Below are positions 42,271-44,879 of a DNA stretch of 64,000 nucleotides, in pieces. The DNA is from Elusimicrobiaceae bacterium (lineage in GTDB: Bacteria; Elusimicrobiota; Elusimicrobia; Elusimicrobiales; Elusimicrobiaceae), in contig JAFXVA010000008.1 in NCBI GenBank assembly GCA_017534965.1, positions 139,409 through 203,408 on the forward strand. The letters run 5' to 3'. The first letter of the stretch is position 1. Every line of letters begins with the position of its first letter. Below the pieces are notes generated by a model. It did not search any database and was not told where the DNA came from. It was given only the letters and a program-made list of their open reading frames with translations. The translations under genes and the position numbers were made by a program.

Positions 42271-42300
42271 CTTCGGCTTTTTGGTAAATTTTAATATTTT
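42271..42300 (+). repeat. Left end of the dispersed repeat (fragment D)
   Basis: CTTCGGCTTTTTGGTAAATT continuing TTAATATTTT nearly repeats the left end of copy B (18739-18765). It covers the last bases of the pilin gene, and the TAA stop of that gene (42291-42293, complement) lies within it. Confidence 0.5.
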
Positions 42301-42788
42301 TTATAAACTTTACCACCTTTTCCGCAATATTGGTCTGCAGTAAAAATTATATCTGTATCTGGTATCTGTTCTTGGCAAAGTTTTTGGCCCAGTTCTTGTG
42401 TGCTGCAACACCACTTTTCTGTTTGACTGGCAAATTTTCTTGCATACATAATATGTGGACTTGTTAAGGTACACGCTATAGTATTGCGCGCAGTATCATA
42501 AGTTATTACACAATTACCCCAATCAAAAGAAATCCTATTATTGTTTGAAGAAAAAGTTCCGCCTTCAATACTAATATCTAAAACACTTAAATCAAGGCTT
42601 CTTTTGCCATTTGCAAGGATATAAGTTTGCTGGGCTTGCCATATAGCATTTGCCGCAAAAAGCAACTGGGTAAATTTTGCTTTCGCAACCGCTTTTTGAT
42701 ATTGCGGAACAGCGATAGCCGCCAAAATACCGATAATCAAAACTACTACTAATATTTCTATTAAAGTAAAACCTTTTTTATTCATCAT
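42291..42788 (-). CDS. Type IV pilin-like protein
   Basis: The 165-residue prepilin has the type III signal: KKG|FTLIEILVVVLIIGILAA, with cleavage after Gly and Glu at +5 of the mature protein, then a hydrophobic helix and YQKAVAKAK. The C-terminal half is Cys-rich (WCC, CQEQ, YCGKGG), with about six cysteines that could form disulphides. AGGAG lies 7 nt before ATG 42788. No pilus assembly genes are nearby, so it may work with machinery encoded elsewhere. Confidence 0.9.
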   Translation of the reverse strand: MMNKKGFTLIEILVVVLIIGILAAIAVPQYQKAVAKAKFTQLLFAANAIWQAQQTYILANGKRSLDLSVLDISIEGGTFSSNNNRISFDWGNCVITYDTARNTIACTLTSPHIMYARKFASQTEKWCCSTQELGQKLCQEQIPDTDIIFTADQYCGKGGKVYKKY

Positions 42789-43003: not shown

Positions 43004-43096
43004 ACAGAGCAAATGATTTTGCAAAGATTTTAAATTTAGAGCAGGCGCAAGCGAGGGAGAGTATACTGTGAAAGGCCGGAGGCCGAAGTATCCGAC
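43004..43096 (-). repeat. Dispersed intergenic repeat, copy C (inverted)
   Basis: CAGAGCAAATGATTTTGCAA then AGATTTT (43004-43031) is the reverse complement of the right end of copies A and B. The core AGTATAC..GGCCGGAGGCC..GTATCC follows at 43060-43093. Confidence 0.55.
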
Positions 43097-43136
43097 CGAG
43101 GTTGCAACGTACTATAAAGTTAAAAGCTGCCGCAAA

Positions 43137-43379
43137 TAAAAAAACGGCTGTCATATTTTAGCCCTAGTAATAACCAAAATATAACAGCCGTGGCCTGCCG
43201 TTCTTTTATAAGAACGGCAAACACTCGGCACAAAACAAACGGGTAATTAGTCCGTTTGTCTTGTGCCTAATAACGCGCTGCTTTTGGACTTACTAGGAAC
43301 TTTTGATTTCTCAAAAGCTAGTTTTGCTTTAGCAAAACCTCCAAAAACAGATTGAAATTTTATATAGACTTTCGCCTAC
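43137..43379 (-). ncRNA. Predicted structured non-coding RNA, about 240 nt, family not recognised
   Basis: Read on the minus strand, an extended -10 (TGCTATACT, complement of 43386-43394) is followed by a chain of helices. First is GUAGGC-GAAA-GUCUAU (43379-43364). Next comes an 11-bp helix (43350-43340 with 43288-43278) enclosing two 7-bp hairpins, GUUUUGC-UAAA-GCAAAAC and CUUUUGA-GAAA-UCAAAAG. A two-part hairpin (43267-43227) and a 9-bp hairpin (43218-43197) follow. The last is a 20-bp terminator helix (43191-43172 with 43163-43144) ending in a U run. There is no ORF. It lies after the marC terminator, so it is a separate unit. I see no tmRNA, RNase P, SRP or clear 6S signature. Confidence 0.7.
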
Positions 43380-43385
43380 TCTTTC

Positions 43386-43394
43386 AGTATAGCA
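43386..43394 (-). promoter_or_regulatory. Extended -10 promoter of the structured RNA
   Basis: The complement reads TGCTATACT. The -35 region 17 bp upstream (TTTATC) is weak, but an extended -10 can compensate. Predicted start of transcription is about 43379. Confidence 0.55.
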
Positions 43395-43411: not shown

Positions 43412-43441
43412 AAAAAACCTCTCATTTAGAGAGGCTTTTTA
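43412..43441 (-). terminator. marC terminator
   Basis: On the minus strand, AAAAAGCCTCTC-TAAAT-GAGAGGTTTTTT forms a stem with a U run, 19 nt after the marC stop. Confidence 0.8.
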
Positions 43442-44496: not shown

Positions 44497-44582
44497 CGCG
44501 CATAAAGCAGTTTATGCGCTACTTCCATTTTTCTAAAGAGCAAATTCCTTCTAAATTACTTCATTAAAAATGGGCAGTACAG
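44497..44582. repeat. 86-bp direct repeat, copy 1
   Basis: It matches 44691-44776 at 84 of 86 positions. It begins with the perfect hairpin GCGCATAAA-GCAG-TTTATGCGC and ends with the first 12 bases of a tRNA-Val 3' end (TGGGCAGTACAG). Confidence 0.85.
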
Positions 44583-44595
44583 AATGTTCGCCTTC
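44571..44595 (-). pseudogene. Fragment of tRNA-Val 3' end
   Basis: TGGGCAGTACAG equals the 3' acceptor and T-stem start of the intact tRNA. It is followed by a shrunken ATGTTCGCCTTCC, so the rest of the T arm and variable loop have decayed. Confidence 0.65.
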
Positions 44596-44690: not shown

Positions 44691-44776
44691 CGCGCATAAA
44701 GCAGTTTATGCGCTACTGCCATTTTTCTAAAGAGCAAATTCCTTCTAAATTACTTCATTTAAAATGGGCAGTACAG
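44691..44776. repeat. 86-bp direct repeat, copy 2
   Basis: This is the second copy, 194 bp from the first. It leads directly into the intact tRNA-Val gene and includes its 3' end. The hairpin 44692-44713 lies downstream of the tRNA in transcription order and could help end it. Confidence 0.85.
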
Positions 44777-44836
44777 GGTTCGAACCTGTGGCCTTCCGCG
44801 TGTGAGGCGGACGCGCTACCACTGCGCCAACTGCCC
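44765..44836 (-). tRNA. tRNA-Val(CAC)
   Basis: A 72-nt cloverleaf on the minus strand. Acceptor GGGCAGT pairs with ACTGCCC, the D arm is GCGC-AGTGGTA-GCGC, the anticodon stem-loop is TCCGC-CTCACAC-GCGGA with CAC as anticodon, and the T arm is ACAGG-TTCGAAC-CCTGT. The discriminator is A. CCA is not encoded (TTTT follows). Confidence 0.95.
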
Positions 44837-44879
44837 AATGCTTTATTACTTTTTACTACTTTCGTATTTGGGCTTCGTG

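Follow-up and report, generated by a model that had tools for sequence, protein, structure and literature searches.

A pseudoknotted leader RNA, probably a transcription attenuator, precedes pilin and cell-envelope genes in Elusimicrobiota

Introduction

T-box leaders are large and form mutually exclusive terminator and antiterminator structures, and in other bacteria cyclic di-GMP riboswitches I and II are known to precede pilin genes and surface genes. In the ZTP/ZMP (pfl) riboswitch, pairing occurs between a strand of the junction and the loop of a hairpin further downstream, at the terminator, and the regulatory decision is made during transcription (PMC7337938). The pseudoknotted domain of the fluoride riboswitch (crcB) competes with an intrinsic terminator (PMC11077080). 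Candidate structured RNAs from termite gut bacteria, Termite-flg and Termite-leu (RF01729, RF01730), have also been described (PMC2864571). Here we describe a leader RNA encoded on the minus strand at positions 43137–43394 of a 64,000-nucleotide (nt) stretch of an Elusimicrobiaceae genome (GenBank assembly GCA_017534965.1, contig JAFXVA010000008.1, positions 139,409 to 203,408; hereafter the window).

Elusimicrobiota are non-motile, and the appendages of Endomicrobiaceae are pilins only (PMC11257099); Endomicrobium carries type IV pilins and competence genes (PMC8809381). On the evidence of structure, covariation and gene context, the RNA probably represents a new class of cis-acting, transcription-attenuating 5′ mRNA leader that would set transcription of the gene behind it.

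Results

The minus strand at 43137–43394 has a minimum free energy of −109.7 kcal/mol, compared to −57.6 ± 4.7 kcal/mol for dinucleotide shuffles (z = −11.2), and none of 200 shuffles matched it. Read from 43394 to 43137, the RNA is almost entirely helical, and its start adjoins the separate terminator of marC (43412–43440), which precedes the extended −10 promoter element TGCTATACT of the leader (43386–43394). A first-pass annotation, made by reading the sequence, had proposed a structured RNA here, and the fold bears this out, including the extended −10 after the marC terminator, a GAAA-capped 5′ hairpin, an 11-base-pair (bp) helix around two hairpins (one GAAA-capped), a long hairpin and a 20-bp terminator with a U-tract. 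A further hairpin is likewise present, although it comprises ~13 bp in the minimum free energy structure and not the 9 bp originally given.

The copies that we identified elsewhere share a common architecture: a variable helix P1, a conserved AATTT stretch, a three-way junction of P2, P3 and P4, usually P5, and then P6 and P7 with its U-tract. On the minus strand of the window, P1 is the 5′ hairpin (43364–43379), whose loop is GAAA in this copy and whose sequence varies from copy to copy. The P2 5′ strand CUGUUUUUGGA (43340–43350) closes the junction with the P2 3′ strand UCCAAAAGCAG (43278–43288), enclosing hairpins P3 (43320–43339) and P4 (43299–43319, with a GAAA loop) and the joining strand J4/2 (43290–43297, CCUAGUAA). 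Downstream lie P5, a 16-bp hairpin (43227–43267), hairpin P6 (43192–43224) and P7 (43144–43191), the stem-loop of an intrinsic terminator ending in a U-tract (43137–43143). Across the family, the P3 and P4 loops are frequently GNRA-like or GNRGA. A short subclass, in other genomes (for example, G294, G305, G023, G136 and G021), lacks P5 and retains the junction, pseudoknot and terminator, as judged by eye in eight sequences.

To assess covariation, we used 55 non-redundant main-class copies (less than 80% alike) and a structure model of 81 pairs that includes the pseudoknot. Overall, 95.7% of cells are paired, and 64 of the 81 pairs show changes on both sides, the compensatory pattern that the first-pass annotation had named beforehand as a test. 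The covariation score is 0.526; shuffling lowers it to 0.214, and sliding the partners to 0.135 or less. P2 pairs are kept in 98.2% of cases, whereas double changes occur at 6/6 model pairs of P3, 7/8 of P4, 16/16 of P5 and 12/12 of P6; in the P7 terminator with its U-tract, 94% of cells are paired.

Complementarity between the P7 apical loop and the stretch separating P4 from the P2 3′ strand creates a pseudoknot that the first-pass annotation had not described. In the window, CCUAGUAA pairs with UUACUAGG inside the P7 loop (43163–43170). Among the 55 copies, all nine pseudoknot pairs in the model covary, 94.3% are paired and every position has at least three pair types. In the first 15 copies, complementarity extends over 7–11 pairs in each case, and the copy's own loop is the best or nearly the best partner. 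Of 70 parsed copies, 69 form at least seven pairs with their own loop, mostly ten, compared to a mean of 5.3 with foreign loops. One strand of the pseudoknot directly abuts P2 and its partner abuts upper P7, an arrangement in which P2, the pseudoknot and P7 could stack on one another. The P2/P3/P4 junction and pseudoknot make up a conserved, structured putative sensor domain to which an expression platform is attached; this was counted in main-class copies and seen by eye in the eight short-subclass sequences.

An alternative pairing, likewise beyond the first-pass account, connects this domain to the terminator. The P2 3′ strand and the bases that follow it (CCAAAAACAG(C)UCG) are complementary to the P7 5′ strand (CGGCUGUU-AUA-UUUGG); in the window, the P2 3′ strand extended to 43274 provides one antiterminator strand (43274–43287 in the pairing) and the P7 5′ strand (43174–43191) provides the other. 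Conserved pairing in the copies, duplex energies and folding support both strands. The predicted antiterminator duplex has a mean energy of −13.9 in the main class (55 copies), compared to −6.4 ± 2.4 for shuffled strands, and −12.6 in the short subclass (eight copies), compared to −5.6 ± 2.9. The two classes differ at both strands, and exchanging strands between classes gives −6.3 and −9.5. Because this exchange weakens the duplex, both strands must have changed together. When transcripts are folded as far as the end of the P7 5′ strand, the 55 main-class copies show a difference of only 0.24 ± 1.13 kcal/mol between the P2 and antiterminator states, with total fold energies of about −64 to −83 in the copies listed; in the short class, four of seven sequences are within 3 kcal/mol at this decision point.

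We compared the RNA with known families by searching with the Rfam 15 covariance models, none of which matched it at its gathering score; below that score (E up to 10), no hit was convincing. The window and 20 loci with other copies matched only tRNAs among the Rfam 15 families, leaving ZTP, cyclic di-GMP, T-box, tmRNA, RNase P, SRP and 6S RNAs unmatched. These searches agree with the first-pass view that the RNA falls in no known family.

Of 78 copies with flanking sequence, 75 are followed by a gene on their own strand, as judged by simple open reading frame calling; the set includes orthologous copies and therefore represents fewer than 78 independent events. Start codons mostly lie 30–95 nt past the U-tract. 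Of the 78 downstream genes, 44 encode type IV prepilins, recognized by their N-terminal motif. Others that we sampled encode outer-membrane barrels, glycosyltransferases, polysaccharide pyruvyl transferases, sulfatase-like enzymes, TM2/zinc-ribbon proteins, a nuclease homolog, an HsdR-like protein and, by eye, lipoprotein-like or secreted proteins; most of the non-pilin genes are cell-envelope genes. Upstream, a −10-like hexamer is present in 72/78 copies (loose consensus, without a control), and a 50-nt stretch there can form a hairpin (P1) in 73/78. The upstream regions seem to be of two kinds, with the −10 either close to P1 or further up with a GGAG between. This Shine–Dalgarno-like GGAG is seen, for example, in L017, L018 and L029, and in some cases tiny reading frames (ATG-TAG, TTG-TTA-TAA) come after it.

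The family is dispersed within and between genomes; the first-pass annotation mentioned neither these further copies nor the pilin gene downstream of the window copy. A DNA search found at least eight copies in the window's own genome, the others 69–73% identical to the window copy, and recognizable DNA-level copies in 26 of 60 relatives. Of 90 genomes in the taxonomic family, a covariance model detected the leader in 80, where copy numbers ranged from 1 to at least 26, and a refined model detected it in 99 of 341 Elusimicrobiota genomes, chiefly in two genera of the window's family and in a second family. Scanning named genomes with a sequence pattern returned 93 stretches, of which nearly all carry Elusimicrobiota titles (Elusimicrobiaceae, Elusimicrobium and one Endomicrobium); many came from rumen, faeces and other gut metagenomes, and a few were titled just 'uncultured bacterium'. 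One match in Algibacter is probably due to chance. An exact-pattern search of viral contigs gave no match, leaving a viral origin unsupported.

Two observations concern the diversity and spread of the copies. The P5 loops (columns 115–124 of alignment A3) are of a few recurring types, CUAAUUAC, AAGUCAUGAG, CUGAUCCC, CUUAUAAUC and GUAGCUCC, which reappear across genomes and are mixed inside single genomes. Copies L024, L033, L035 and L026 stand before a gene similar to HsdR-N or before neighbours of that gene, and a serine-recombinase-like gene is found 2–3 kb further on; the leader may also travel on a mobile element common to several species.

The window genome has 30 prepilin genes, five of which are preceded by a leader copy. 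The gene presumably controlled by the window copy (42291–42788, minus strand) encodes a type IV prepilin with an N_methyl domain (PF07963, E = 7.5e-9). Its start lies ~350 nt past the U-tract because a second, unrelated dispersed repeat intervenes (43017–43135, minus strand), which has copies 87% and 85% identical elsewhere in the genome; one of these repeat copies, G000:C39:21738-21861, likewise lies shortly upstream of a prepilin gene. Elsewhere in the window, a partial duplication of ~90 nt (~44500–44590 and 44700–44840) lies beside a tRNA gene (44765–44836, minus strand) and includes the tRNA end AAATGGGCAGTACAG.

Discussion

The structure, the pseudoknot, the placement before genes, the complementarity and the near-equal energy of the two states are computed properties of the leader. 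It has the anatomy of an attenuator, namely a 5′ untranslated position on the gene's strand (75/78), an intrinsic terminator and a mutually exclusive antiterminator. The name transcription-attenuating leader fits on these grounds; 'riboswitch' requires a ligand, and we refer to the RNA as an orphan riboswitch candidate. By inference, the two states would switch, in the direction given below, and a ligand of some kind would exist. The terminator is presumably not always formed because genes ~40 nt behind it could otherwise hardly be expressed.

In the mechanism that we propose, RNA polymerase would start just upstream of P1 and produce P1, then the P2/P3/P4 junction domain, and then P5 and P6. 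In the on state, the emerging P7 5′ strand would invade P2 and pair with its 3′ strand, and the resulting antiterminator would allow the gene to be transcribed. In the off state, the P7 5′ strand would be left free to pair with its own 3′ strand, forming the terminator and keeping the gene off. The pseudoknot between the P7 loop and the strand abutting P2 would fasten P2 to the terminator in the off state, and the antiterminator would exclude both. Which state forms would depend on a signal that stabilizes or destabilizes the junction domain, with a small molecule as our first guess.

Several points weigh against this reading. In three of the seven short-class sequences, the antiterminator is favored over P2 by at least 10 kcal/mol. 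In the main class, P2 and the antiterminator share nearly invariant sequence, so that covariation of the switch comes from a few short-subclass sequences. The genes behind the leader do not form one metabolic pathway and imply no metabolite. Finally, the ~350-nt distance from terminator to pilin start in the window is unusually long and contains another repeat, which makes control of this gene less certain than at other copies.

Four other explanations bear on the same evidence. The RNA could be an attenuator as described above that is operated by a protein or another RNA instead of a small molecule, which we consider rather unlikely. The downstream genes (pilins, outer-membrane barrels, glycosyltransferases, polysaccharide pyruvyl transferase, sulfatases and lipoproteins) share a surface theme and not a metabolite, and the GNRA-like or GNRGA loops of P3 and P4 are possible docking sites for proteins or helices; however, a large, strongly conserved junction combined with a pseudoknot is more typical of ligand-binding leaders, and a search for a NusG paralog that might serve as antitermination factor found at most one NusG-family protein per genome and no sign of a specialized RfaH- or LoaP-like paralog. 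Attenuation by ribosomes on a very short upstream reading frame would account for the GGAG that stands 20–75 nt before P2 in 36 of 78 copies, compared to ~9% expected by shuffling. Over half of the copies, including that in the window, lack this motif, and the aligned stretches show no common reading frame by eye, making ribosome-mediated control very improbable.

The first-pass annotation had favored a stand-alone RNA of ~240 nt with its own promoter and terminator. Such an RNA would act in trans, perhaps as a regulatory small RNA. Both signals are indeed present, the next gene in the window is 350 nt away, and a terminated leader would in any case release a ~240-nt RNA able to act alone. We nevertheless regard this interpretation as improbable: the same-strand gene that follows 75/78 copies is usually, by position, too close for another promoter, the competing antiterminator is conserved, and the pseudoknot and P1 sequences vary among paralogs, such that no common guide sequence is seen. 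The same annotation had held that the RNA is 'not just a repeat', which stands insofar as the RNA is new, under selection, folded and functional, although it does belong to a dispersed repeat family. A mobile element with inverted repeats and no RNA function, similar to a miniature inverted-repeat transposable element, would fit the many dispersed copies and their very unequal numbers per genome (1 to at least 26). It is already contradicted by the compensatory changes that almost all helices and the pseudoknot show; moreover, the orientation to downstream genes is fixed, copies are just ~70% identical and none matched the exact pattern in viral contigs; we consider it extremely improbable.

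Building on the attenuator reading, we tentatively propose, as a serious possibility, a new Elusimicrobiota riboswitch class in which a sensor junction grips the terminator loop. By responding to a single intracellular signal, possibly a second messenger, it would control a surface regulon that comprises as many as dozens of pilin and envelope genes in these gut symbionts. GGDEF and PilZ genes occur in most leader-bearing genomes examined, but because they also occur in relatives where the leader was not found, cyclic di-GMP is neither supported nor excluded as the signal.

Open-access literature on Elusimicrobia with pilins, riboswitches or structured RNAs, to which our search was confined (subscription papers were outside its scope), yielded no description of the leader; as far as this literature shows, the class is undescribed and absent from Rfam. 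It is a large and very well-supported RNA class that offers a first handle on the joint activation of many Elusimicrobiota pilin and envelope genes. A pseudoknot into a terminator loop, together with near-isoenergetic states over dozens of diverged copies, would make it a useful model for co-transcriptional switching.

Among described RNAs, Termite-flg (RF01729) and Termite-leu (RF01730) are both in Rfam, and the leader matches neither. T-box leaders follow the same terminator–antiterminator logic, but the leader has no Rfam match to them and does not precede amino-acid genes. Its gene context is similar to that of cyclic di-GMP riboswitches I and II, again without an Rfam match. Like the fluoride riboswitch, the leader is a pseudoknotted attenuator with an intrinsic terminator; the fluoride riboswitch, however, is small, has another fold and precedes other genes, and the leader is unmatched in Rfam. 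The ZTP riboswitch resembles it in pairing a junction strand with the loop of a downstream hairpin at the terminator. The leader is much larger, contains a three-way junction and has no Rfam match to ZTP. Whereas the ZTP pseudoknot opposes the terminator in an on-switch, that of the leader reaches the loop of the terminator itself and leaves termination possible.
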